Below, piece by piece: positions 12,429-31,637 of a stretch of 64,000 nt of DNA. Below the pieces are notes generated by a model. The model had not been told where the DNA came from. It did no database searches and saw nothing but the letters and a program-made list of their open reading frames with translations. Source of the stretch: Capnocytophaga sp. ARDL2 (GTDB lineage Bacteria > Bacteroidota > Bacteroidia > Flavobacteriales > Flavobacteriaceae). The stretch spans positions 868,001-932,000 of the forward strand of contig NZ_CP168034.1 in assembly GCF_041530365.1 (NCBI RefSeq), read 5' to 3'. The translations under genes were made by a program, and so were the position numbers. The first letter of the stretch is position 1. Every line of letters starts with the position of its first letter.

Positions 12429-14700
<2,272 letters not shown>

Positions 14701-18764: not shown

Positions 18765-20768
18765 ATGAATCAACAGCCTAATAGAAAAACTCGAATAAGC
18801 CCTTGGTACTTGTGGAGTAGCTTGATATTGCTTTTTATTTTTATCAATTATTACACAGGTGAAAATGGTGGGGCAACCGATGAAATTTCGATTTCAAAAT
18901 TTGACGACTACCTCAACGAAGGTAAAATAGAAAAAGTAGCTTTCAACCGCAATTCGGCTCGTATTTTATTTACAAAAGAGGCTGAAAAAGAATTGGAAGA
19001 AGCCAATAAACAAAAAGCAGAAAATCAACGAGGATTCTTTAGCAATCTTCAAGGTCCCGTACGCTACAAAGTAGAAATTGCCAATGTGGAACTGTTTGAA
19101 CAAACCTTGCGTGATGCCAAAAACAAAGGTTTGTTGAAAGAATACAAATCTGAAAAAGAAAGCGAATGGACGGGGATTTTCTTTAACTTTTTGCCTTTCT
19201 TGTTGATTATTTTGTTTTATGTATGGATGTACCGTCGTATGATGGGCGGAGCTGGTAGCGGAGGTCCAATGTTTTCAATGGGACGCTCTCGTGCACAGGT
19301 ATTTGACGAAAAAAACAGTACCAAAGTTTCTTTCAATGATGTAGCAGGATTGGAAGGTGCTAAAGAGGAAATTCAAGAGATTGTTGAATTTTTGAAAAAC
19401 CCTGAAAAATATACATCAATTGGAGGTAAAATCCCTAAAGGTGCTTTGTTGGTAGGTCCTCCAGGAACAGGTAAAACACTTTTGGCAAAAGCCGTTGCAG
19501 GCGAAGCCAATGTGCCATTTTTCTCTTTGTCTGGTTCGGATTTTGTAGAAATGTTTGTAGGTGTGGGAGCATCTCGTGTACGTGATTTGTTTAAACAAGC
19601 AAAAGAAAAATCACCTTCGATTATTTTTATTGATGAAATTGATGCCATAGGTCGTGCTAGAGGAAAATCGAATGTTTCAGGAGCAAATGACGAAAGAGAA
19701 AACACCTTAAATCAATTGCTCACAGAAATGGATGGTTTTGGTACGAATACCAATATTATTGTACTAGCTGCAACCAACCGTGCAGAGATTTTGGACAAAG
19801 CCTTGATGCGTGCAGGACGATTTGACCGTCAGATTTATGTAGATTTGCCAGATGTACGCGAAAGAAAACAAATCTTTGAAGTGCATTTGAAAAAACTGAA
19901 AATAGCAGAAGGATTGGATATTGAATTTTTGGCAAAACAAACCCCAGGATTTTCAGGTGCTGATATAGCCAATGTGTGTAATGAAGCCGCATTGACTGCA
20001 GCGAGAAAAAACAAAACACAGGTTGAAAAACAAGATTTCTTGGATGCAGTAGATCGCATCGTAGGTGGATTGGAAAAGAAAAACAAAATCATAACACCAG
20101 ATGAGAAATATGCCATTGCGGTACACGAGGCTGGACACGCTACTGTTTCATGGCTATTGGAACACGCAGCACCACTAATCAAAGTTACCATAGTACCAAG
20201 AGGAATGAGTTTGGGTGCCGCTTGGTATCTTCCAGAAGAACGCCAAATCGTCCGTACCGAAGTAATGCTCGACGAAATGTGTGCTACTATGGGGGGTAGA
20301 GCAGCGGAAAAAGTAGTGTTTGATAAAATTTCGACAGGGGCTTTGAGCGACTTAGAAAAAGTAAACAAACAAGCCAAAGCGATGGTAACCATCTATGGAT
20401 TGAGCGACAAATTAGGAAATATCACTTACTATGACTCTTCTGGACAAAGTGATTACAATTTCTCAAAACCTTATTCGGAAGAAACCGCTGTAAAAATCGA
20501 CAAAGAAGTTTCTGAAATTATCGAAACTCAATATCAAAGAGCAATTGATTTGCTCTCTGAAAACAAAGATAAACTGTTGCAATTGGCAGATTTGTTGTGC
20601 CAAAAAGAAGTGATTTTCCGCGAAGATTTGGAGACGATTTTTGGTGCAAGACCTTTTGATAAAAAAGATTTGATTGCCGAGCAAGTTTCTTCTGAAATCA
20701 AACAACCAGAAACGACAATTGCAGAGGTTGTAGAAGAAATAAAAGAAGAAAAGGATACTGAAAAATAA
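18765..20768 (+). CDS. ftsH: ATP-dependent zinc metalloprotease FtsH
   Basis: A 667-residue membrane-anchored AAA+ protease. Two membrane helices (about 13-30 and 136-156) bracket a periplasmic domain. The AAA domain has Walker A GPPGTGKT near 230, Walker B FIDEID near 288 and the SRH with AGRFDRQ near 350. The peptidase domain carries the zinc motif HEAGH near 455. It degrades misfolded membrane proteins and short-lived regulators. It follows rsfS by 10 bp and is followed by a terminator. The acidic C-terminal tail is typical for this group. Confidence 0.96.
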
Positions 20769-20805
20769 AAAGTCATACTAAAACGACCAGTGTCTCAATA
20801 TATTG

Positions 20806-20837
20806 AAAAAAACTATACCTCAAGGTATAGTTTTTTT
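20806..20837 (+). terminator. Terminator after ftsH
   Basis: A stem of up to 14 bp (20806-20819 with 20824-20837) with a 4-nt loop, ending in a long T run. Confidence 0.85.
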
Positions 20838-20889
20838 TTACTATCAAAAGACTACTCTCAATAGTATCTCTACTTGTTTTACAAATGAT

Positions 20890-21606
20890 CTACCTTTTCA
20901 CCACAATACCCAATGCTTCAAGGGCTTGGTCGTCTTGGAAGAGGACCTTGGCATACGCTACCAATTCGGTATAGATAGGATAAAGTTTGTCCAATGCTTC
21001 ATCGCGGATTTCGGTGGCTTTTTGGGCTTCGCTGGTTTCCTTTTTCTGACTTTCTTTCAAGGCAGATAGCTCTTGCAAAGCCGTTTTTTGAGCCTCCAAA
21101 TCGGTTTGTGTGATGTTGATAGTGCCTACTTTTGCCAAAAACTCCGAATTGCCCAAAAGTTGCCCATAAAAATTACTCACCTGCTGATACCACGAAGCAT
21201 AGGCATATTTTCTTTCCCCTGCAAACTCTAATGTTTTGGCTGCCAGAGTATCTCCTTTAAATAAAATTTTACAGAACGATAAATGACGAATGTAAAGTTC
21301 ATTGATTTGTTTTCTTTTGGCATCCAATTTTTCTGTTTCTGCGTACTGCTCGGCGTATTCTTTCTTTTGATTTTGAGCCAATTGTTCTAGTTTGTTTACT
21401 TTCGCTAAATAGTCATTAAGCTTTTCTTCGGTATAGCCCAAAGTTTGCAATTGTGGTAAGATTTTGGGGAGTTTAGCATTAGAAAACACCAGTTTCATTT
21501 GCTGAATTTTGGCATCAGCATTTAGATACTGGCTTTTGGTGGCTTTTTTCGGTTCGTTTGCCGTAGCATTTTCTTCTGTGGGCTTTTTGTTTGTGTTTTC
21601 GCTCAT
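20890..21606 (-). CDS. Hypothetical coiled-coil protein
   Basis: A 238-residue protein without signal peptide or membrane helix. The first about 25 residues are hydrophilic and disordered (MSENTNKKPTEENATANEPK). Most of the rest is rich in Gln, Glu, Lys and Ala with heptad character (about 60-105 and 165-205), with a conserved-looking aromatic helix YAYASWYQQVSNFYGQLLG between. Domains of this type occur in Bacteroidota as hypothetical proteins; I cannot name a function. Its promoter, phased repeats and first 20 codons are duplicated 2.1 kb upstream, on the far side of a restriction-modification pair. This suggests it was once the next gene after menB. Confidence 0.65.
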   Translation of the reverse strand: MSENTNKKPTEENATANEPKKATKSQYLNADAKIQQMKLVFSNAKLPKILPQLQTLGYTEEKLNDYLAKVNKLEQLAQNQKKEYAEQYAETEKLDAKRKQINELYIRHLSFCKILFKGDTLAAKTLEFAGERKYAYASWYQQVSNFYGQLLGNSEFLAKVGTINITQTDLEAQKTALQELSALKESQKKETSEAQKATEIRDEALDKLYPIYTELVAYAKVLFQDDQALEALGIVVKR

Positions 21607-21670
21607 AATAAAATGGATTTAGTTCGTTATAAAATCGTATTTGGTTGTTATTTTTTCAATATTGGTTGTA

Positions 21671-21678
21671 CAAAAATA
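21671..21678 (-). promoter_or_regulatory. -7 box of the coiled-coil gene
   Basis: On the minus strand these bases read TATTTTTG (TAnnTTTG), 65 bp before the ATG. The 21-bp phased repeats begin immediately upstream. Confidence 0.5.
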
Positions 21679-21681
21679 GTA

Positions 21682-21763
21682 TTTCGGCACTGAAAAATGA
21701 GTTTTGGTCATCAAAAAATGATATTCAGGCAATCAAAAATGAATTTCGGTCGGCGGAAATTGG
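21682..21763 (-). repeat. Four phased ~21-bp repeats upstream of the coiled-coil gene
   Basis: Units start at about 21682, 21702, 21723 and 21744, with plus-strand core TTTCGG or a variant followed by AAAAATGA. The period of 20-21 bp equals two helical turns. The array lies directly upstream of the -7 box, as does the array before ahcY, and is repeated in copy B (about 23829-23910). Confidence 0.6.
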
Positions 21764-21829
21764 TTTTTTAGTGTTTGGAGATTAGTTTTATTTAAACATT
21801 TACAATCAATATATATCTTTTTATTAAGT

Positions 21830-22771
21830 TTATAAATGTTTAATTATTTGCTTTGCAATTTTCTCTATCACATTGATGGCTACACTATTTCCGAACTGCT
21901 GATAGGCTTGATTATCGGAAACTGGAATGATAAAATCCTCTGGAAAACCTTGCAATCTCGCTGCTTCTCGTGGGGTCAGTTTGCGTGGATTTTTACCTTT
22001 TTGTTCTATTAATATTTCGCTTCCGTCTTTATAATATCTTGCCGAAATGGTATTGGTGTATTCTGAATTTTCATTAAACAGTCCGTAACCAAACCCTTTT
22101 CCTTTGGCTTTATTTTCTATTTTTCGGCGTTGATGTCCTGCCCAAAGTCTATCCGAAATGGTATATTTTTCATCTACACTTTGTTCTAAAATATCGCCTA
22201 CTTTGGTTGGAGATTGAATAGGTTTAGGAAATTCAAATTGTACATTTTTATCTAAAAAACCTACTATATAAATGCGTTCCCTATTCTGAGGAAGCCCAAA
22301 ATCACGAGCTTTAAGCACTTCATACTGAACATTTTCATAGCCTATTTCTTTTAAATGTTCAATGATGGTTTTTAGTGTATTTCCTTTGTCGTGTCCTTTG
22401 AGTTGTTTCACATTTTCAAGTAAAAAGGCTTTCGGTTTTTTCTCTTTTAAAATTCTTTCAATATCAAAAAACAGCGTTCCACGAGTGTCTGAAAATCCTT
22501 TTTTTAATCCTGCTTGACTGAATGGCTGACACGGAAACCCTGCCAATAGAATATCGTGATTAGGAATATTTTTTTCATCAATTAAAGTAATATCTCCTGC
22601 AATATCTTCATTAGGAAAATTAGAACAATATGTTTTTACAGAATATGGATTTATTTCACTGGTAAAAACACATTCTATATTATTATAAGCTCTTTCAAAT
22701 CCTAAACGAATACCTCCAATTCCTGCAAAGAGGTCTATTATTTTAATTTTCTTTGCCATTATTTTTTCCAA
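21830..22771 (-). CDS. DNA (cytosine-5-)-methyltransferase, Dcm/M.EcoRII-like specificity (pair 1)
   Basis: A 313-residue m5C methyltransferase. Motif I is FAGIGG at 15-20, the catalytic motif IV FPCQPFS has Cys81, motif VI is ENV at 119-121, motif VIII is QNRERIYIVG, and motifs IX-X close with QFGNSVAINVI. The target-recognition region reads LWAGHQRRKIENKAKGKGFG, and then an ISARYYKDGSEILI stretch like that of Dcm and M.EcoRII, suggesting recognition of CCWGG or CCNGG (inference). It overlaps the 3' end of the partner endonuclease gene by 13 bp. It would protect host sites from that enzyme. The start may instead be the Met at codon 5. Confidence 0.9.
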   Translation of the reverse strand: MEKIMAKKIKIIDLFAGIGGIRLGFERAYNNIECVFTSEINPYSVKTYCSNFPNEDIAGDITLIDEKNIPNHDILLAGFPCQPFSQAGLKKGFSDTRGTLFFDIERILKEKKPKAFLLENVKQLKGHDKGNTLKTIIEHLKEIGYENVQYEVLKARDFGLPQNRERIYIVGFLDKNVQFEFPKPIQSPTKVGDILEQSVDEKYTISDRLWAGHQRRKIENKAKGKGFGYGLFNENSEYTNTISARYYKDGSEILIEQKGKNPRKLTPREAARLQGFPEDFIIPVSDNQAYQQFGNSVAINVIEKIAKQIIKHL

Positions 22772-23634
22772 AAATTGATAATATTAGGAATTTCATCAAA
22801 TAAATATTCTTCAAAACTAATAATGTTTTTCATTTCTTTTAATTCTTTCGAATTGGCTACCCAATCATAAGCTACTACAATGATATTATGATTTGCCATT
22901 TCTTGGGCTTTACTTTTTGAAATAGTTTCATCGGCTGTTAATAGATGAATTGTAGGAATATTTGTTCGCTGGATTTCCTCAGCGACTTCTTGCCATCTCT
23001 CACGAAGGGATGTTTTCATCGTTCCGATAATAGTCTTACTTCGTCTTTCTTTAAAGGCTTCAATATTAGGTAGAATGCTATCTACTTTTTTACCCAAACC
23101 GAGGCTATCAAAGGTTTTTCGCCCTACTTTGCTTTGGCTATCGTAAGAATAACCTAAATATTCGTACAATTTATAAATGATTGCCTCAAAAGTTTTCCCT
23201 GCTCTCGACCGCCTTGATTGTGTCATACTCAACGATAAACGATAAATATACGGAAATACCCTACCTGCATACTCTCCGCAAATGGCTTTGATACTTTCAA
23301 GCAACTCCTCTCCCTTTTTGTTAATGATATTTTCAGTTAATAGAATGTCCAAAATAGATTTTGGCGTGTTGAGAATCTTATGTAAATCACGCATTATAAT
23401 GGCACTAAACTCTACTTCATCATTCAAATATTCTTGCCAAGATTCTTCACGAAGTTTGGCAATGGATTCACTAACTTCCTTATTATCAATTAAGGAAAGG
23501 TAAGTTTTATGATTTTTAAAAACCTGTTCCACAATTTCCTGCGAAGAACGAATGTATTGTTGTCTGTATTTTTTTATACTTTCATCAAAAACATTTAATT
23601 CTTTTTTGGGTATTTCTATTATTTTAGGTATCAT
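22759..23634 (-). CDS. Type II restriction endonuclease, EcoRII-C/PspGI-like (pair 1)
   Basis: A 291-residue protein. The C-terminal half matches the PD-(D/E)XK fold of EcoRII-C/PspGI-type enzymes: SRRSRAGKTFE at 140-150, KVDSILPN at 183-190 with the likely metal-binding Asp185, and TMKTSLRERWQE at 205-216 with the likely catalytic Lys207. The N-terminal 120 residues are helical. The partner methyltransferase has a Dcm-like recognition region, consistent with CCWGG/CCNGG cutting (inferred, not shown). The gene begins 18 bp after a degenerate copy of the menB stop codon and 11 bp after a short chimeric reading frame. It looks intact. Confidence 0.82.
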   Translation of the reverse strand: MIPKIIEIPKKELNVFDESIKKYRQQYIRSSQEIVEQVFKNHKTYLSLIDNKEVSESIAKLREESWQEYLNDEVEFSAIIMRDLHKILNTPKSILDILLTENIINKKGEELLESIKAICGEYAGRVFPYIYRLSLSMTQSRRSRAGKTFEAIIYKLYEYLGYSYDSQSKVGRKTFDSLGLGKKVDSILPNIEAFKERRSKTIIGTMKTSLRERWQEVAEEIQRTNIPTIHLLTADETISKSKAQEMANHNIIVVAYDWVANSKELKEMKNIISFEEYLFDEIPNIINFWKK

Positions 23635-23645
23635 TTTTATTCTTT

Positions 23646-23753
23646 TTAAATCCTAACTAATCCACTGATTCTCGCCAAAATCAGGTTTTCGTTTTTCGGC
23701 TCGTTTGCCGTAGCATTTTCTTCTGTGGGCTTTTTGTTTGTGTTTTCGCTCAT
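23646..23753 (-). CDS. Chimeric 35-codon leader: coiled-coil gene start fused to menB tail
   Basis: The ATG at 23751-23753 and next 19 codons copy the coiled-coil gene (MSENTNKKPTEENATANEPK). At about 23692-23697 the sequence changes to a copy of the menB 3' end, read out of frame (NENLILARISGLVRI), ending 11 bp before the endonuclease start. It has a copied promoter and upstream repeats, so it could be transcribed and couple translation to the endonuclease gene. It probably has no function as a peptide. Confidence 0.5.
   Translation of the reverse strand: MSENTNKKPTEENATANEPKNENLILARISGLVRI
23653..23697 (-). repeat. Degenerate copy of the menB 3' end (copy 2)
   Basis: About 45 bp corresponding to the last codons and stop of menB (real copy 27704-27755). 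Read on the minus strand it encodes EKRKPDFGENQWIS and TAG. It lies directly upstream of endonuclease pair 1. Confidence 0.85.
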
Positions 23754-23917
23754 AATAAAATGGATTTAGTTCGTTATAAAATTCTATTTGGTGGTTATTT
23801 TTTCAATATTGGTTGTACAAAAATAATATTTTGGCACTAAAAAATGAGTTTCGGTCATCAAAAAATGATATTCGGTCGGTCAAAAATGGATTTCGGTCGG
23901 CGGAAATTGGTTTTTTA
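23692..23917 (-). repeat. 226-bp direct repeat, copy B
   Basis: The second copy of the coiled-coil gene 5' region, including a -7 box (TATTTTTG on the minus strand, about 23818-23825) and the four phased repeats, ending in codon 20 where it joins a menB tail. It lies between pairs 1 and 2. Confidence 0.9.
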
Positions 23918-23977
23918 TTGCTTATAATACCTTTTTAAACAGATGAATGTTAATATCATATTTTGTAAAGTAAAAAA

Positions 23978-24733
23978 CTAATGATTATTTAAATCAAATA
24001 ATTCCGCAGGATTGATTTTGAATTGTAGCATTTTGGCTGTGTCGCGTCCGCCATCACCTCCTTTTCGTTGCATTGTTATTTTTCCTATTTTAAAACTACC
24101 TTGTTTGGTCATTATTACGCTTTCGTTTCCAAAATAATTCAGGCAGAAATTCATTGGCTTTAAAATCTATCGTGAATTCTTTTCAACTTTCTGAACCACC
24201 AGCATCCATTCGGCAGAAAATTGCCCTCTTCCCTTTAAAATATCTGAAACAATGAGCGATTTATTAGCCTCAATCCATTGCAATATCAACTCTTGCTCTT
24301 GGGTGGTAAATTCATCGGCAAACATTCTTCGTTTATCCCTCGGATTGGCTATATTCGGAATTATTTCGCCTGTATATCTCTTCAAAATAGAAGTAATTTC
24401 TTGGGGAATATCCCACATTTCCACATATTTATCCACCCAGCGTTTATCGATTTGATTAAATCCTTTTGGATTGCTTACCAATTTTACTTGTAGATTCTGA
24501 CAATCAATGGCTTCTTTAAGTTTGATGGTTACTTGTACTTGTACATCGGTTTTATATCCGCTTATTTTTACAGCTTTCACAAATTCGATTTCATCCAAAT
24601 CATATTGCATTATGATTAGCCACTTTTGAGCCTCTTCATCACTTTTCCAATTATTGAATTTATGCACAATATCCTCCTCATTACGAAATCCGTTCTTTGC
24701 TGTTTGTGAGCCTAATAATTGTTCTTTATTCAT
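23978..24733 (-). pseudogene. HinP1I-like type II restriction endonuclease, in-frame TAG (pair 2)
   Basis: The 251-codon frame closely matches R.HinP1I (cuts GCGC; compared from memory). It opens MNKEQLLGSQTAKNGFRNEE and keeps the catalytic set at Asp63, Gln82 and Lys84 (SGYKTD, then NLQVK). Other shared stretches are NPKGFNQIDKRWVDKYVEMW and DILKGRGQFSAEWMLV. TAG at 24167-24169 interrupts codon 189, where HinP1I has Trp (context ARW), and the frame continues through ITMQRKGGDGGR and MLQFKINPAELFD to a stop at 23978-23980. The change is a single TGG-to-TAG step. The truncated protein lacks the conserved C-terminal RKGGD segment and is probably inactive. Confidence 0.87.
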
Positions 24734-24744
24734 TTTGACATTTA

Positions 24745-25737
24745 TTATTGATTATCCAAAACTTCCATTATTTCTTTGGCAATTTCCTTCAAAACATTGA
24801 CCGAAACGCTGTTGCCAAACTGCTTATAAGCCTGTGTAATAGAATTATTTATGATAAAATCCTCAGGAAAACCTTGTACTCTGGCACATTCTCTAGGCGA
24901 TAGTTTGCGTACTTTTCCATTTACGAGATACAAACCCGTTTTTGCCCCCACACCACCGCCATAGGCAGAAAGCGTAATGGCGTGTCCGTCTGTATGATAG
25001 ATGCGTTCGCCTTGTCCGCCCTTGTTTACTTTTCCTATTTGAATAGGCTTGTTGGGATAATCTATTTCTCCAAATAAATCTTTGGTAGGTTGATAATTCT
25101 TATAAATTTCGATGTCGTTTCGTTCAATGATTTTACCATCTTTGGGATTGTCTTCTAAAAAATCTTTCAAAGCTACCTTTTGATTGAGTGGCTTGGGAAA
25201 TTGAAAATTTTTACTATCAATGGAATGATGAAACGCCACGAAATAGATACGTTCTCTGTTCTGCGGAAGACCGAAATCACTGGTGTTAAGTACTTGATAA
25301 TATACCTGATAGCCCAAATCTGTAAGAGTTTTCAAAATAACTTTCAATGTATTCCCGTGATTGTGTCGGACTAAGTTCTTTACATTTTCCAAAAAAATAA
25401 CTTTCGGCTGATGATGATTGACAATCCGAGCAATATCAAAGAAAAGCGTTCCGCGAGTGTCTTCAAAACCTTTTTGTTTGCCCGAAATGGAAAACGCCTG
25501 ACAGGGAAAACCTGCACAAAGAATGTCGTGCGAGGGAATTTCCTTTTCATCAATTTGGGTAATGTCGCCAAAAGGGGTTATTCCATAGTTTTGCAAGTAG
25601 GTTTGAGCAGCGTGTTTGTCCCATTCGCACGAGAAAACACATTGAGCATTGGCGTTGTTCATCGCTTGATGAAATCCGCCAATTCCTGCAAAAAGGTCGA
25701 TAAACCGATTGTTATTTAATGAATGTAAATGTGTCAT
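24745..25737 (-). CDS. DNA (cytosine-5-)-methyltransferase, M.HhaI-like (pair 2)
   Basis: A 330-residue m5C methyltransferase. Motif I is FAGIGG near 16-21, catalytic FPCQAFS holds Cys79, ENV follows near 118, QNRERIYFVAF is motif VIII, and the end has QFGNSVSVNVL. The recognition region GKVNKGGQGERIYHTDGHAI followed by TLSAYGGG matches the M.HhaI recognition domain, predicting methylation within GCGC. The partner downstream resembles HinP1I, which also cuts GCGC, so both halves agree independently. The gene starts 28 bp after a degenerate menB stop copy and precedes the endonuclease gene by 11 bp. With the endonuclease broken it may persist as a solitary methyltransferase. Confidence 0.92.
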   Translation of the reverse strand: MTHLHSLNNNRFIDLFAGIGGFHQAMNNANAQCVFSCEWDKHAAQTYLQNYGITPFGDITQIDEKEIPSHDILCAGFPCQAFSISGKQKGFEDTRGTLFFDIARIVNHHQPKVIFLENVKNLVRHNHGNTLKVILKTLTDLGYQVYYQVLNTSDFGLPQNRERIYFVAFHHSIDSKNFQFPKPLNQKVALKDFLEDNPKDGKIIERNDIEIYKNYQPTKDLFGEIDYPNKPIQIGKVNKGGQGERIYHTDGHAITLSAYGGGVGAKTGLYLVNGKVRKLSPRECARVQGFPEDFIINNSITQAYKQFGNSVSVNVLKEIAKEIMEVLDNQ

Positions 25738-25765
25738 TTAAGTAAAATAGTATTATATTCTAAAC

Positions 25766-25817
25766 CTATGAAATCCACCGATTCTCCCCAAAGTATGGTT
25801 TTCTTTTCTCTAAAAAG
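25766..25817 (-). repeat. Degenerate copy of the menB 3' end (copy 1)
   Basis: 52 bp aligned without gaps to 27704-27755 with 7 differences by eye. It reads FLEKRKPYFGENRWIS and TAG on the minus strand. It lies just upstream of the pair 2 methyltransferase gene and just downstream of pair 3. Confidence 0.85.
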
Positions 25818-25836
25818 ACTCATATAATTCTTTATC

Positions 25837-26913
25837 TTATTTTTTTTGAGTATTCAAAGCTCTTATCAAACTTCTTCCTACAGCATAGGCTAAATTCACG
25901 GGTACAGCATTTCCTATTTGTTTGTATTGATTGCTGATTGTACCTTGAAATTCCCAATCGTCTGGGAATGTTTGGATTCGTGCGTATTCTCTGACGGTTA
26001 GAGGGCGTGTTTCGTCGGGGTGACAACGCTCTGTTTGTGTTTGGGCGGGTGAGCAAGTAAGCGTAAGACTGGGTTCGTTCCAACTGAGCCGTCTTGCCAT
26101 TCCTGTTTTTCCCCCTCCTAAATGATAACTTCCTTTCATATATTCTCGTGCGACTTCATCAGGCAAATCTCTCCAACAGCCACCTGGAGGAACTAAATCT
26201 AATATATTTTTTTTCTTCTCTGTATATTCTTGTCCTACAGATTTTGGGACGTCATTTTTGTATAATTCACCTGCTTTTAAGGCGTCGGTCATTTTCATTT
26301 CACGATGATAAGGTACAGGAAAGTGAAATTGAATGTTTTTTGCCAAATCATTTCTTATTCCTACGATAAGTACGCGTTCTCTTTTTTGTGGTACCTGATA
26401 TTTCACTGCGTGAAGAATTTTAGGTTCTATAATGGTGTAGCCTAATTCCTGCAAAGTTTTTTTGATGGTAGCGATAGTTCGTCCTTGGTCGTGATTGAGC
26501 AATCCGCGAACATTTTCGCCTAAAATCATTTTGGGTTGCACTTCGTCAATGGCTCTTGCAAATTGAAAAAACATCGTTCCACGAACATCGTCAAACCCCT
26601 TTCCTTTTCCTGCATACGAAAATGCTTGGCAAGGAAATCCGCCTGATAGTAAGTCGATTGTACCTCGGTATTTTGTGAAATCAATATCACAAACATCGCT
26701 TTCTAATACATTCCAATTAGGACGATTATGGCGAAGGGTATTACAGGCGTGTTTGTCCCATTCGTTGAGTAAAACAGCCTCAAAACCTGCCATTTCTAAC
26801 CCTAAAGCTAAGCCTCCTGCTCCTGCAAAAAGTTCGATACTTTTGTAATTTTGGTTAGGAACAACTTGTTTTTCTTCTTCCCAAGTAGGGCTAAATAAAT
26901 CAATGGTTTGCAT
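25837..26913 (-). CDS. DNA (cytosine-5-)-methyltransferase, GGNCC-type candidate (pair 3)
   Basis: A 358-residue m5C methyltransferase with a roughly 24-residue N-terminal extension. Motif I is FAGAGG at 29-34, catalytic GGFPCQAFS holds Cys95, ENV follows near 133, QKRERVLIVG is motif VIII, and the end reads QIGNAVPVNLAYAVG. The recognition region (YHLGGGKTGMARRLSWNEPS, LTCSPAQTQTERCHP) resembles enzymes of the GGNCC/GGWCC group, and the partner is Eco47II-like, so GGNCC is the best guess. The start codon overlaps the end of the endonuclease gene by one base, showing translational coupling. Confidence 0.9.
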   Translation of the reverse strand: MQTIDLFSPTWEEEKQVVPNQNYKSIELFAGAGGLALGLEMAGFEAVLLNEWDKHACNTLRHNRPNWNVLESDVCDIDFTKYRGTIDLLSGGFPCQAFSYAGKGKGFDDVRGTMFFQFARAIDEVQPKMILGENVRGLLNHDQGRTIATIKKTLQELGYTIIEPKILHAVKYQVPQKRERVLIVGIRNDLAKNIQFHFPVPYHREMKMTDALKAGELYKNDVPKSVGQEYTEKKKNILDLVPPGGCWRDLPDEVAREYMKGSYHLGGGKTGMARRLSWNEPSLTLTCSPAQTQTERCHPDETRPLTVREYARIQTFPDDWEFQGTISNQYKQIGNAVPVNLAYAVGRSLIRALNTQKK

Positions 26914-27686
26914 TATATTTTTAGTGTAAAGTGTTCGAAGCCTTGATATTTTTTGAATGCTACTAAATACAATTTTTGTAAAATATTATCAATTCCTTTT
27001 TCCTGTAAATCTTGAATTACGGTATTTTCTACAATATGTTGGTCTTGTTCTTTTAGTACATCTTGAATTACTTGTGGTAATACTTGACAAAGTTCTAAAA
27101 AAGCGGTAGAATTATCTGTAACAATTTCATAAAATTTGTCGATTGATACACGGCGAATATTTTCGTGTTCCATTTTTTGATTATCTAAACTGCAAGTCCA
27201 TACAATGTTTTGACTGTTCTTTGCAATGATCTCTACCAGCATACAAATCGACTTAGGGTTTTTCAAGATTTGATTTTGCATTCGCATATAAGTCTTTGCA
27301 GAGGAAGAGCTGTTCATTGTGTTGTGTTTATTCTTCATTTCTACAAAAATATTTAGCTTATGATTTTCTATATCAAAGCCTTGATTAGGGACTGTCCAAC
27401 CGTTGTTTGCTCCGATATATTTAAAAATATTCTGATGAAAATAACCTATGTGATTAGTATTCGATTTGTCAATTTGTCGAAGTACTTCATTTTCTAAAAT
27501 CCGTTCCAAATTTTCGTTGGAAAATCCACCTTGATAAATTGCCGAATCAAAGGTTAATTTGACAGGGTCTAAAAGATTCTTATTCAGTTTTTCAAAATCT
27601 ATCTGAAAACGATATTTATCCACCGTTTCTTTTATATGATTGAATAAATCTTGGTCTTTTATAAATGATAATTTATATTTTGACAT
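26913..27686 (-). CDS. Eco47II-like type II restriction endonuclease (pair 3)
   Basis: A 257-residue protein resembling the Eco47II/Sau96I group (GGNCC). Shared features are an opening LSFIKDQDLFNHI, NHIGYFHQNIFKYIG at 78-92, and a probable PD-(D/E)XK centre made of Asp105 (NQGFD), Glu116 and Lys118 in the FVEMKNKHNTMNSSS run at 114-128. It starts 17 bp after the authentic menB stop codon, so menB read-through transcription could express it. It appears intact. The specificity is inferred from the family; the cut position is unknown. Confidence 0.82.
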   Translation of the reverse strand: MSKYKLSFIKDQDLFNHIKETVDKYRFQIDFEKLNKNLLDPVKLTFDSAIYQGGFSNENLERILENEVLRQIDKSNTNHIGYFHQNIFKYIGANNGWTVPNQGFDIENHKLNIFVEMKNKHNTMNSSSSAKTYMRMQNQILKNPKSICMLVEIIAKNSQNIVWTCSLDNQKMEHENIRRVSIDKFYEIVTDNSTAFLELCQVLPQVIQDVLKEQDQHIVENTVIQDLQEKGIDNILQKLYLVAFKKYQGFEHFTLKI

Positions 27687-27703
27687 TGTATAATATCTAT
27701 TAT

Positions 27704-28546
27704 CTAACTAATCCACTGATTCTCCCCGAAGTCAGGTTTTCTTTTCTCTAAAAAGGCGTTGCGTCCTTCTTTGGCTTCGTCGGTCATATAGGCAAGACGG
27801 GTAGCTTCCCCAGCGAATACTTGTTGCCCGACCATTCCGTCGTCGGTGAGGTTCATCGCAAATTTTAGCATACGGATAGAAGTTGGCGATTTTGCCAAAA
27901 TCTCCTGAGCCCACTCATAGGCAGTAGCTTCGAGCTGAGCGTGAGGTACTACTTTATTGACCATTCCCATTTCAAACGCCTCTTGTGCGGAGTAGTTTCT
28001 ACCCAAAAAGAATATCTCACGGGCTTTTTTCTGTCCTACCATTTTTGCCAAATAAGCCGAACCATAACCGCCGTCAAAGCTGGTAACATCGGCATCGGTT
28101 TGTTTGAAAATCGCGTGTTCCTTACTTGCCAAAGTCAAATCGCACACTACGTGTAGCGAGTGTCCGCCACCTACTGCCCATCCGTTTACCGCGGCAATCA
28201 CCACTTTGGGCATAAAACGAATGAGGCGTTGCACCTCCAATATATTGAGTCGGTGTCTGCCATCATCGCCCACATACCCCTGATGTCCACGAGCTTTTTG
28301 GTCGCCACCACTGCAAAAGGCGTGTCCGCCGTCTTTGGGACTTGGACCTTCGCCTGTGAGGATTACCACGCCTATACTTGGGTCTTCGTACGCATCATAA
28401 AACGCATCATAAAGCTCGGAGGTGGTTTTTGGGCGAAAAGCATTGCGTACTTCTGGTCGGTTAAAGGCGATTCTGGCTACGCCGTTACATTTTTTGTAGG
28501 TAATATCTTCAAATTCTATGGCTGTTTTCCATTCGATTGTATTCAT
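27704..28546 (-). CDS. menB: 1,4-dihydroxy-2-naphthoyl-CoA synthase
   Basis: A 280-residue crotonase-fold enzyme that closes the naphthoquinone ring from O-succinylbenzoyl-CoA in menaquinone synthesis. Key segments are ARIAFNRPEVRNAF near residue 24, HAFCSGGDQKARG near 74, the oxyanion segment AVNGWAVGGGHSLHVVCDL near 119-137, and the C-terminal KRKPDFGENQWIS. Length is normal. Its last 45-52 bp occur in two more degenerate copies within the restriction-modification island immediately downstream. Other men genes are not in the window. Confidence 0.95.
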   Translation of the reverse strand: MNTIEWKTAIEFEDITYKKCNGVARIAFNRPEVRNAFRPKTTSELYDAFYDAYEDPSIGVVILTGEGPSPKDGGHAFCSGGDQKARGHQGYVGDDGRHRLNILEVQRLIRFMPKVVIAAVNGWAVGGGHSLHVVCDLTLASKEHAIFKQTDADVTSFDGGYGSAYLAKMVGQKKAREIFFLGRNYSAQEAFEMGMVNKVVPHAQLEATAYEWAQEILAKSPTSIRMLKFAMNLTDDGMVGQQVFAGEATRLAYMTDEAKEGRNAFLEKRKPDFGENQWIS

Positions 28547-28580
28547 TCGTATGAGTTTTATATGTTAAACATTATTTTTA

Positions 28581-30581
28581 TTAATTGAAAAAATCCCAAC
28601 TGATACCAAAGCGAAAGGTTATATCTTTGTATGGATATGTTGGAGCTGTATAATGATTTGATTTTCCTATGATACTGTTTAGGTTTTCTATTCCAACAAA
28701 CAATTTGGCTGTTTGTATTTTTCCATTGACAAATAAATCTACTATTGGATAATTGCCAATTTTTGAAATATTTTGTACATAATAATCTCCTATTACAGGA
28801 TTGTATCCATCGGCGTGATATTTTGTAAAATACCTAACATTGATTCCTGCTTGTAGGTACAAGGCTTTTTTAAAGAAATAATCTGAATAATAAAAAGTAT
28901 TTCTCGTAAAAATAGTCGGTACATTTACAATATCTTGTGATTGTGCTACTTGTTGAAATTTTACCAAATTTTCCATACTATATTTTTTCCATTGCCATTT
29001 TTTTGTAGCGGCAATTGCAAAATAATTGATGAGTTTGGTATGTTGTTTTGGTGTCGTAATCAGTTGATTATATTGATTGTACGAGTCCAAAGTAGTTGCG
29101 TCATTTGAAAAATATACTTTGTCGTGTATCAATTGATATTTTGCCTCTAATTCTAACCAAGGAGAAACAATATCAAACTGCAATTTGTGAATTTTTTCAT
29201 TGTTGAATGCGTTATGCCAATTGTAGCTAACCAAATTACTCTGATACATTTGTGAAGTAAAATTGGGCAATTTTGACATAAATTGATACGACGCATTTAC
29301 ATCTACCTTTTCCAATGGTTTGACGTGAGTTGTAGCACTCAAACTACTGATATTGTCTTTGCTGATAGATTGTTGAGCGGTAATATCAATATCCAAAGGT
29401 TTGGTTTTGAGTAAATAACTTCCTCCTAAACTCAAAATGGTATTGTTTAACCTCGAAGGAATCACCTGATTATCTTTACCAATCATTTGACTATTGAAAA
29501 AATAATTGTAAGTATAGGTATTGACAAAAGCGGTCAATTTTCCTAAAGTTGAATTGTTTATCGATAAATCTACTTGATTTTCAAGAGTTTTTAACTTTGA
29601 TTTGTCATAAATTCCTGAAAAAATTTCTCCAAAATATGATTCATTTAGGTTATAGGAAAAAGCCGTAGGTTGCTTGTAAAGATTTTTCCAATAATTGTAT
29701 TCAATTTTTTGCGAAAGAATAACTTTATTGTTTTCCTTATTTATAAATGCATATTGATGATTGAGGTACAAACGCGTGTTGTCAAGAGTAGTTGAGGCAT
29801 CTCTAAGTCTCACATCGAGTTGTTCACGATTGGTCTCACGGTCTTGATAAAGAATAGGTTCGGTAATACCTCCATTTTCTTGCAAAAATTGGTCTTGAAC
29901 GACAATATGTGAAAACAATTTGTAAGTGTTGTTTTTACTAAAATAGCTACCACCTATTCTAAAATTTCCTACAGAAGTCAATTGATTGATATATGCACCT
30001 AACGAACGCAAACCAGTGTATCCTGTAAAAACATTGAGTTTTTCAGTAATATTTAGCGTGATAAAAGCGTCCAATTGTTGTCCTTGTTTGATACCCGATT
30101 GAAAGTTGAGGCGTGTCCAAGGGGTAGGTACATTGTAGTAATAGATATCATCGGTTTTCAAAAAAGTGATTTGTCGTGTAGCCATACCCAAAGTAGGGAA
30201 TAAGCCTTCGTTTTTGAGCCAATAGTCCGCAAATGTACCACCTCTACCATCGTTGGCAAAAGGAATGAAACCTGCTAAATCTTTTTTGAATAAATTGTGT
30301 TCAAAGTATTTTTTTACTGTCAATGTAGTATCGACAATGGTGTGATTTTCTTTTATATCAAAGATTTTGTATTTGTCAATAGGAGGAATAGAATCTAGTT
30401 TTTTTGCATTAGAAAAACGTCTAAGTCCTACAGAATCTACATTTTGAGTGGTTGTGTTTTGGGAAGAATCTCTAAGAATATTTTGTTTTTTATGAGAAAT
30501 GTTTTGCATGGATCTATTTATCTGAGCATTTGTAGAAAAAATAAACGAGCTAAACATTGCTATGGTAAAGATTCTTTTCAT
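28581..30581 (-). CDS. Putative porin (outer-membrane beta-barrel)
   Basis: A 666-residue protein. The signal peptide ends STNAQ at about residue 20, and a Ser/Gln-rich disordered segment follows to about 80. The remainder is a series of amphipathic strands with many Tyr, Phe and Asn turns, ending FRFGISWDFFN with a terminal aromatic, as expected for an outer-membrane barrel. It fits the flavobacterial putative-porin family; no substrate can be named. Its own terminator lies upstream, shared with trxB on the same strand. Confidence 0.8.
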   Translation of the reverse strand: MKRIFTIAMFSSFIFSTNAQINRSMQNISHKKQNILRDSSQNTTTQNVDSVGLRRFSNAKKLDSIPPIDKYKIFDIKENHTIVDTTLTVKKYFEHNLFKKDLAGFIPFANDGRGGTFADYWLKNEGLFPTLGMATRQITFLKTDDIYYYNVPTPWTRLNFQSGIKQGQQLDAFITLNITEKLNVFTGYTGLRSLGAYINQLTSVGNFRIGGSYFSKNNTYKLFSHIVVQDQFLQENGGITEPILYQDRETNREQLDVRLRDASTTLDNTRLYLNHQYAFINKENNKVILSQKIEYNYWKNLYKQPTAFSYNLNESYFGEIFSGIYDKSKLKTLENQVDLSINNSTLGKLTAFVNTYTYNYFFNSQMIGKDNQVIPSRLNNTILSLGGSYLLKTKPLDIDITAQQSISKDNISSLSATTHVKPLEKVDVNASYQFMSKLPNFTSQMYQSNLVSYNWHNAFNNEKIHKLQFDIVSPWLELEAKYQLIHDKVYFSNDATTLDSYNQYNQLITTPKQHTKLINYFAIAATKKWQWKKYSMENLVKFQQVAQSQDIVNVPTIFTRNTFYYSDYFFKKALYLQAGINVRYFTKYHADGYNPVIGDYYVQNISKIGNYPIVDLFVNGKIQTAKLFVGIENLNSIIGKSNHYTAPTYPYKDITFRFGISWDFFN

Positions 30582-30640
30582 TTTTTGAATATCGATTTTT
30601 CAAAGGCAAATGTACGTAATAATGTTGGATTTATTGAATA

Positions 30641-30672
30641 AAAAAATCTCGTTGTCACAAACGAGATTTTTT
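30641..30672 (-). terminator. Terminator after trxB
   Basis: A perfect 13-bp stem (30641-30653 with 30660-30672) and a 6-nt loop with A/T arms. It lies 18 bp past the trxB stop on the minus strand and separates it from the porin gene. Confidence 0.85.
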
Positions 30673-30689
30673 TATGATTTTGTTGGCTA

Positions 30690-31637
30690 TTATCCCAAAC
30701 TTGCTAAATATCTTTCGGCATCCAAGGCTGCAATGCATCCAGAACCTGCTGCTGTAATTGCCTGTCTGTAGTCTTTGTCTTGTACGTCACCACATGCAAA
30801 AACTCCAGGGATATTTGTTTTAGATGTTTTTCCTTCTGTAATCAAATAACCTGTTTCGTCCATGTTTAATTGACCTTCAAAAATATCTGTATTTGGTTTG
30901 TGACCGATGGCAATAAATACTCCAGTAACAGCAATTTCTTGTTTTTCGCCAGTTTTAGAGTTTACCACACGTACACCGTTTACGATTTGTCCGTCTCCTA
31001 ATACTTCGTCGATTTCTGTATTCATCAAGATTTCGATGTTTGGAGTGTTGCGTACGCGTTCTTCCATGATTTTCGAAGCTCTAAATTTGTCTGAACGTAC
31101 CAACATAGTAACTTTGTTGCACAGGTGAGATAAGTAGTGAGCTTCTTCACAAGCTGAGTCTCCAGCTCCTACGATGATTACATCTTGCTTTCTGTAGAAA
31201 AATCCGTCACAAACAGCACAAGCCGAAACTCCACCTCCCATTTGCAAATAATGTTGTTCTGAAGGCAATCCTAAGTATTTTGCTGTAGCACCTGTAGAGA
31301 TGATTACGGTTTTTGCGTGAATTTCGATAGAGTCGTTGATCCACACTTTTTTGATATCTCCTGACAAATCTACTTTTGTTGCAAATCCATCACGAACGTC
31401 TGTTCCAAATCTTTTTGCTTGGGCTTGTAATTGCATCATCATTTCAGGACCTGTTACTCCTTCTGGATAGCCCGGAAAGTTTTCTACTTCGTTAGTTGTA
31501 GTCAATTGTCCTCCAGGTTGCATACCTTGGTACAATACTGGATTCATATTTGCACGAGCTGCATAAATGGCAGCGGTATATCCCGCAGGACCAGAGCCTA
31601 TAATAAGGCATTTTACCGTTTCTATTGTTGTTGACAT
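30690..31637 (-). CDS. trxB: Thioredoxin-disulfide reductase
   Basis: A 315-residue FAD/NADPH enzyme that reduces thioredoxin. FAD-binding GSGPAGYTAAIYAARA is near residue 14, the redox pair CAVC near 140, NADPH-binding GAGDSACEEAHYLS near 157, and FAD-binding GVFACGDVQDKDYRQ near 280. Length is normal. A TATTTTTG -7 box lies at 31661-31668 on the minus strand. It is transcribed alone, between two terminated or decayed regions. Together with bshA it provides thiol redox balance. Confidence 0.96.
   Translation of the reverse strand: MSTTIETVKCLIIGSGPAGYTAAIYAARANMNPVLYQGMQPGGQLTTTNEVENFPGYPEGVTGPEMMMQLQAQAKRFGTDVRDGFATKVDLSGDIKKVWINDSIEIHAKTVIISTGATAKYLGLPSEQHYLQMGGGVSACAVCDGFFYRKQDVIIVGAGDSACEEAHYLSHLCNKVTMLVRSDKFRASKIMEERVRNTPNIEILMNTEIDEVLGDGQIVNGVRVVNSKTGEKQEIAVTGVFIAIGHKPNTDIFEGQLNMDETGYLITEGKTSKTNIPGVFACGDVQDKDYRQAITAAGSGCIAALDAERYLASLG

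Follow-up and report, generated by a model that had tools for sequence, protein, structure and literature searches.

Three restriction–modification pairs and two menB ends

In the 64,000-nucleotide stretch analysed here (the window; Capnocytophaga sp. ARDL2, contig NZ_CP168034.1, positions 868,001 to 932,000), three restriction–modification (RM) systems lie in series 3' of the housekeeping gene menB, and a leftover menB end precedes the second and the third. All of these features are on the minus strand. Going 3' from menB, one meets R1–M1, menB tail 2, M2–R2, a copy of the head of a PQLLE-family gene, menB tail 3, R3–M3 and the intact PQLLE gene, which faces ftsH. The resident menB (27704..28546) is of the Capnocytophaga/Weeksellaceae type and is the sole close MenB match in its genome, the next match being 33% identical in amino acid sequence. 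Its own 3' end (27704-27755) recurs as tail 2 (25766..25817, 52 bp), with 7 differences over 52 positions (45/52), and as tail 3 (23653..23697, 45 bp), with 40 of 45 positions matching. Both tails keep the menB reading frame to its stop codon (FLEKRKPYFGENRWIS in tail 2, EKRKPDFGENQWIS in tail 3).

The initial annotation had reported both recurrences, together with gene starts 17, 28 and 18 bp past the respective menB stops for pairs 1, 2 and 3; we find the same similarities and the same spacing. Chance similarity was considered as the source of the tails and rejected, as the next best ungapped 52-mer to the menB end, on either strand of the whole window, matches at 28/52. A search of the host genome with positions 27650-27760 returned three places only at E ≤ 0.001 (8.7e-53, 3.3e-12 and 2.6e-10).

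The three pairs, taken as RM systems in the initial annotation, are confirmed as such by profile matches. Pair 1 consists of R1, an Eco47II-family restriction endonuclease (26913..27686), followed by M1, a C5-cytosine DNA methyltransferase (25837..26913). In pair 2 the order is reversed: M2, a C5-cytosine DNA methyltransferase (24745..25737), precedes R2, a HinP1I-type restriction endonuclease (24167..24733). Pair 3 again has the endonuclease first, with R3, of the EcoRII-C type (22759..23634; EcoRII-C positions 26-164 of 165), followed by M3, a third C5-cytosine DNA methyltransferase (21830..22771). Going by the family names, we take the specificities to be GGNCC-like, GCGC-like and CCNGG-like, respectively. 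By profile, R1, M1, M2 and M3 are complete or nearly so. R2 ends early, at 188 amino acids, and covers positions 1-149 of 208 in the Pfam profile R-HINP1I; the downstream remainder lies in the same frame after the early stop (23978..24166, 62 amino acids) and covers positions 152-208 of 208. The endonuclease of pair 2 is thus probably broken by its early stop, and M2 is perhaps now a lone methyltransferase, while pairs 1 and 3 most likely constitute ordinary type II defence.

Among plasmids, the best relatives of R2, R1 and R3 reach about 56%, 48% and 34% amino acid identity, and a comparison of the RM region of the window with seven Capnocytophaga genomes gave a single match, of 186 bp at 75%. 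Two further resemblances were noted. M2 shares 71% DNA identity with another region of the same genome (L276 4189-5045; G000:C1:2049688-2050544), which is likely a C5 methyltransferase relic, the longest matching ATG-initiated open reading frame (ORF) listed there having 101 amino acids. A relative of M3 and R3 (78.8% and 70.5% amino acid identity) is found in a genome from another family of the order (G812; L275 4364-6002), with no menB within 11 kb around it, so that such an RM pair also exists without a menB anchor.

The distal end of the locus is formed by the intact PQLLE gene (20890..21606), which was previously described as a coiled-coil gene. Its product is 91% identical in amino acid sequence to that of the Capnocytophaga genome G794 and matches the NCBI PQLLE family NF052641 (E 1.6e-59), whose entry gives no function. 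The upstream region and head of this gene (21545..21776) recur at 23692..23923 as a second, truncated copy, which comprises the PQLLE upstream region and the first ~20 codons. This 232-bp repeat, 94% identical between its copies, was overlooked in the initial annotation. It follows from the repeat that unit 2 runs past its RM pair into a PQLLE gene and is there fused to tail 3. At the joint lies a microhomology of 7 bp, CGAAAAA (23692..23698), which is shared by the PQLLE gene and the menB genes of the Capnocytophaga genomes G794 and G796 and is incomplete in the resident menB; joints with at least 7 bp of microhomology make up 0.14% of all those possible between the two parent stretches. Tail 3 as a whole is closer to the menB of G794 and G796 (42/45) than to the resident menB. 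We read the locus as a single site, composed of menB, cargo and PQLLE, that is represented by three truncated alleles placed end to end.

PQLLE upstream regions were also found to have a 21-nt period (0.50-0.56 matches at lag 21, and high at 42 too). This applies to window positions 21607-21776 and 23754-23923 and to three regions in relatives (L163 11905-12075; L166 11210-11420; L165 10247-10440); the units vary in sequence between species and are possibly regulator sites. In the Capnocytophaga genome G648 such a region lies behind the menB cargo without a PQLLE gene. The host genome carries in addition a distant PQLLE-like paralogue (25-27% amino acid identity; L277 2668-8516, near 970179 of G000:C1). 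It sits between an Eco57I-type methylase gene and a gene for a T5orf172/ResIII protein, again adjoining an RM-like system.

Cargo behind menB in Capnocytophaga and the ancestry of menB

The nearest menB and PQLLE genes among the genomes searched belong to our Capnocytophaga set, which comprises 20 genomes, one per species (among them G793, C. canimorsus; G809, C. stomatis; and G804, Capnocytophaga sp.). The menB type of the window is present in six of the 20, at 93-95% amino acid identity, and the cargo behind it differs from genome to genome. In G648 it consists of a 287-amino-acid gene and a D12 N6-adenine methyltransferase, taken together as a type II RM system, followed by 191 bp with 92.7% identity to the PQLLE-upstream region of C. 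canimorsus. In G796 a 315-amino-acid gene is followed by an AbiP2 defence-type reverse transcriptase (E 3.9e-188), and in C. canimorsus a 379-amino-acid gene without a match is followed by PQLLE. G804 and G806 have similar genes of 235 and 229 amino acids, with no match above cut-off in Pfam. With the window counted, recognised defence is present in three of the seven genomes of this menB type, the cargo of G804 and G806 having been checked by Pfam only. The cargo's first ATG lies 12 bp past the menB stop in G796, 26 in G648, 18 in G793, 34 in G794, 61 in G804 and 258 in G806. The 315-amino-acid gene of G796 (L162 9731-12253) has neither a Pfam nor a PADLOC match and is a possible partner of the AbiP2-type reverse transcriptase.

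The sixth genome, G794, also contains extra menB ends. Its menB is followed by a 446-amino-acid gene with weak ZorA/JetC matches only (best E 2e-4) and by PQLLE; farther on, a SUKH gene lies between two menB tails, the first of 37 bp and the second of 210 bp. No RM system is present between menB and a convergent gene that we take to be rluB-like. Both tails are in frame to the stop codon. The 210-bp tail has several amino acid changes, like a fragment free of selection, and is equidistant (181/210) from the menB of G794, G796 and G793; downstream of it lies a hairpin-like stretch and then the convergent gene, an arrangement that looks like a native menB end. Tail lengths thus differ among the window and G794 (52, 45, 37 and 210 bp), yet every tail ends at the menB stop. 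The resident menB has AGT as its last codon, as compared with TCA in tail 2, and TCG and TTG in G794 tails a and b.

C. stomatis, in which menB is of the other type and has no cargo, provides an empty site for comparison. Behind its menB, on the opposite strand, is a gene that we take to be AI-2E-permease-like. G648 is collinear with C. stomatis for 10.1 kb downstream (83.9%), with an insert of ~2.3 kb between menB and the 3' end of the permease-like gene, and this insert is made up of the RM genes and the PQLLE-upstream stretch. In G796, collinearity with C. stomatis begins at the next gene (90.2% over 9.5 kb), the reverse-transcriptase cargo replacing the permease-like gene. Transaldolase is the upstream neighbour of menB in G796, G794, G648, G804 and C. 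stomatis; in C. canimorsus it is nearby but inverted, and the G806 contig starts just before menB. Different cassettes therefore lie between the same neighbours on both sides in G648 and G796 as compared with the empty site, and, as far as compared, on the upstream side only in G794 and G804.

The history of menB departs from that of its hosts. In a DNA tree of 130 menB genes, obtained by a quick search with SH-aLRT (approximate likelihood ratio) supports and no bootstrap, the window menB groups with the six Capnocytophaga menB (a 7-row set, SH-aLRT 96), and this set is nested in one of 27 rows, mostly Weeksellaceae (SH-aLRT 99); the other 14 Capnocytophaga menB are in another part of the tree. 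Two rows from the genus of the host have menB genes identical to those of Flavobacterium amnicola and F. resistens, and the genus is on this ground taken as Flavobacterium. Sequence identities (best local alignments) give a similar picture. Among themselves, G793, G794 and G648 are 75.6-78.0% identical in ftsH and 93.0-94.2% in menB, while G796 and C. stomatis are 92.5% identical in ftsH and 80.2% in menB. The window and the six Capnocytophaga genomes share 73-76% in ftsH and 83-87% in menB; the identity of the window to the Flavobacterium genome G022 is 77.9% in ftsH and 76.4% in menB, and to the Flavobacterium genome G006 76.3% and 76.0%. In the family sample (397 genomes including the host's own, in which the Capnocytophaga genomes matched were G420 and G648), G648 alone exceeds 84% identity to the window menB. 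We conclude, because of the tree and the conflict between ftsH and menB, that the resident menB is foreign to its host, as judged by these comparisons; the direction of transfer, read from the nesting in the tree, is not secure. Between G796 and C. stomatis, identity falls from 93% over the first 60 aligned bases to 83% over the 60 that follow and to 62% thereafter, a drop which indicates that the change of ancestry starts within menB, at a point that is approximate since the stretch is conserved in general.

The genes flanking the segment from menB to PQLLE look native. The window gene that we take to be trxB is 93.6% identical in amino acid sequence to that of G022. For the porin gene, matches to parts of it at E 1e-10 were obtained in four of five Flavobacterium genomes but in no Capnocytophaga genome out of seven; ftsH alone is only slightly closer to Flavobacterium. 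In the best-matching relative, G022, consulted for an empty site of the whole segment from porin to ftsH, the genes menB, ftsH and trxB are far apart. A PQLLE search in the host's own genus (398 genomes including its own) returned the host genome and one match of 26% only. The segment from menB to PQLLE (about 20876-28546), with its Capnocytophaga-like ends, probably entered the host as one block. Elsewhere in the window, a gene that we presume to be katG, for a catalase-peroxidase-like protein (12468-14603), is 81% identical in DNA over 2.2 kb to G804, where the match is on the contig that also holds menB (C235); this is another possible transfer.

A possible second anchor at carB

PQLLE genes were also found 3' of carB, and the interval between the two is again variable. 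It contains no ORF of at least 90 amino acids in G804, a SIR2-like gene in G794, two D12 methyltransferases and a restriction endonuclease in C. canimorsus, and four genes in G648. In C. stomatis (L279 5748-16717) carB is followed by a C5 methyltransferase, a GmrSD_N protein, a HEPN protein, four genes, a remnant of the carB 3' end, an AraC-type gene, a 159-amino-acid gene and PQLLE. The remnant is in frame and is accompanied by a hairpin-like stretch like that behind the intact carB. It is identical at 67/74 positions to the carB of G794 and of G793, at 66/74 to the carB of C. stomatis itself and of G648, and at 57/74 to that of G804; its penultimate sense codon is AGT, as compared with TCT, TCC or TTC in five intact carB. 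Such a remnant is present in one of the five genomes whose retrieved stretches were examined (G648, G793, G794, G804 and G809). On this gene content, the carB site of C. stomatis is a second defence hotspot, which repeats the anatomy of the menB locus with another core gene.

Proposed displacement of older segments and its alternatives

We think it fairly probable that imported segments of menB plus defence genes pushed previous ones downstream rather than replacing them, by homologous import at one end, repeated several times. The DNA that enters the cell would contain a defence cargo behind the 3' part of a foreign menB; one of its ends would recombine by homology within menB, and the other would join by microhomology slightly upstream of the resident menB stop. 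The incoming menB end would keep MenB intact, and the old end, severed from its gene, would remain as a tail before the old cargo. Repeats of this process would yield menB–RM1, tail 2–RM2–PQLLE head and tail 3–RM3–PQLLE in succession, with RM3 predicted to be the oldest pair and RM1 the newest. The worn state of RM2 fits that order only loosely, because RM3 looks intact. Displacement of this kind would explain why the tails vary in length and all end at the stop, and would also account for their codon states, the microhomology (7 bp, measured at one joint), the PQLLE head, the foreign menB and the lack of a neighbouring integrase. The 3' remnants of anchor genes between units of cargo are tails 2 and 3 in the window, two tails in G794 and the one carB remnant of C. 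stomatis. With orientation and spacing as the sole guide, the cargo is perhaps transcribed from the menB promoter; a terminator scan of 20700-28700 gave 7, as compared with 6.4 in shuffles.

Several observations weigh against displacement. Three of the four joints before menB tails (two in the window, two in G794) lie 3-19 bp past the stop of the preceding gene, which random end-joining without selection does not predict. The tails are short, so that tail 3 is 5 sites off the resident menB and 3 off that of G794 and G796; tail 2 is nearest to the resident menB (45/52, next 44/52), and the carB remnant barely separates own from foreign carB. Extra menB tails are present in only one of the 20 Capnocytophaga genomes (G794, with two), as if stacking were rare or fading, although the search was made with a window tail and missed the own menB of G792 and G801, so that distant tails may escape it. 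No intermediate or empty site of the window locus itself was found with one genome per species. Finally, the cargo may own promoters, given that promoter-like sites are commoner in 20700-28700 than in shuffles (43 against 26.8, sd 5.5).

A wider form of the displacement reading can be offered as a tentative suggestion. menB and carB might both be conveyor anchors in Capnocytophaga and in the Flavobacterium-like host of the window: the foreign 3' end of a core gene and a defence module would cross species and genera together, arrivals would push older modules downstream, and in-frame fragments would be the fossil record of this traffic. The PQLLE gene marks the distal end at both loci and may take part.

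The initial annotation proposed that the pairs were gained one after another at the same site, the menB tail being duplicated each time by insertion with long target duplication; on that reading each RM unit would insert itself and copy a stretch of its target, the menB end. Serial gain behind menB is probable, as proposed; target duplication by the RM units we regard as unlikely. Long target duplication is reportedly on record for gene mobility and RM genes, from work attributed to Nobusato and colleagues in 2000, and the locus resembles it in having direct repeats of the target beside each RM pair; that tail 2 is nearest to the resident menB also suits it, and a local origin is not excluded for this one copy. 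Nevertheless, tails of the same kind flank the SUKH gene in G794, where the locus lacks any RM system, an outcome that the initial annotation had itself named as refuting, and the codon states of the tails are unlike those of the resident menB, with tail 3 nearer to the menB of relatives. The microhomology at the tail 3 joint is complete in menB of the G794/G796 type and not in the resident gene, and the PQLLE head joined to that tail is no part of a menB target. In addition, similarity ends at the stop codon in four of four tails, a boundary that duplication need not respect. The further proposal, that the divergence of the tails could order the events, is rejected, since the tails are probably not copies of the resident menB: if they are alleles, their divergence is the distance between menB lineages and not the time since insertion, and the events cannot be dated by it.

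Somewhat less credit is due to the integration of circularised alleles, a rather improbable alternative in which a fragment from another strain, running from menB tail through RM genes to PQLLE head, would close to a circle and integrate by a single crossover, giving a tandem merodiploid. Units 2 and 3 do resemble a tandem repeat of tail, RM pair and PQLLE head with different RM genes, the direct outcome of Campbell-type integration, and the 7-bp joint could be the point of closure; against this, unit 1 stops after M1 with no PQLLE part, and the units of G794 end elsewhere, so that closure would have had to occur in at least two ways. Site-specific integration at the menB end, with tails as att-like remnants of integron-like cassettes or small islands without an integrase, has in its favour that the 3' ends of genes often serve as integration targets, and it suits the intact gene end and the compact cargo, but it is very improbable, as the common stretch has no fixed length, none of the 22 listed inverted repeat pairs bounds a cargo unit, and there is no integrase among the genes identified in 20890-31637 (one farther off in the genome was not sought). 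Simple two-sided homologous replacement was also considered; it does not agree with the build-up of units and the tails left behind in the window and in G794.

If displacement at menB is correct, the arrival order of defence systems can be read at a single site, and small defence modules that lack their own integrase or transposase have a route by which to build up and to pass from genus to genus, carried by a core gene. It also carries two warnings: repeats of a gene end next to RM genes may have arisen otherwise than by target duplication and are unfit as clocks, and menB is a poor phylogenetic marker in Capnocytophaga. We found no published account of menB or carB tails with defence cargo in the open-access literature searched. 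A mechanism of this kind is already known. What appears to be a variant that we did not meet in that literature is that the displaced anchor is a housekeeping gene and the cargo a defence system, in a case that would concern two core genes.

The nearest parallel is in the effector arrays of the type VI secretion system (Kirchberger et al. 2017, PMC5361080). In the model proposed there, a conserved upstream part anchors an incoming module, its other end is joined illegitimately and older parts move back; complete arrays are then passed on as units. The menB locus shares with this description the homologous anchor, the old gene 3' end shifted back and the older partner genes kept in a row. It differs in what is displaced: the variable effector itself, with immunity genes kept, in the arrays as there described, and here a housekeeping enzyme whose function is constant, with whole defence systems kept. 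In the minimal mobile element (Saunders and Snyder 2002, as described in PMC3898611), whole-gene cassettes, often of RM genes, differ by strain between conserved genes and are exchanged by homologous recombination. The likeness lies in the different cassettes, RM included, between the same conserved neighbours. As far as that description goes, however, one cassette is swapped and no anchor tails arise, whereas at menB successive units accumulate, tails stay behind and the anchor gene too is of foreign origin.

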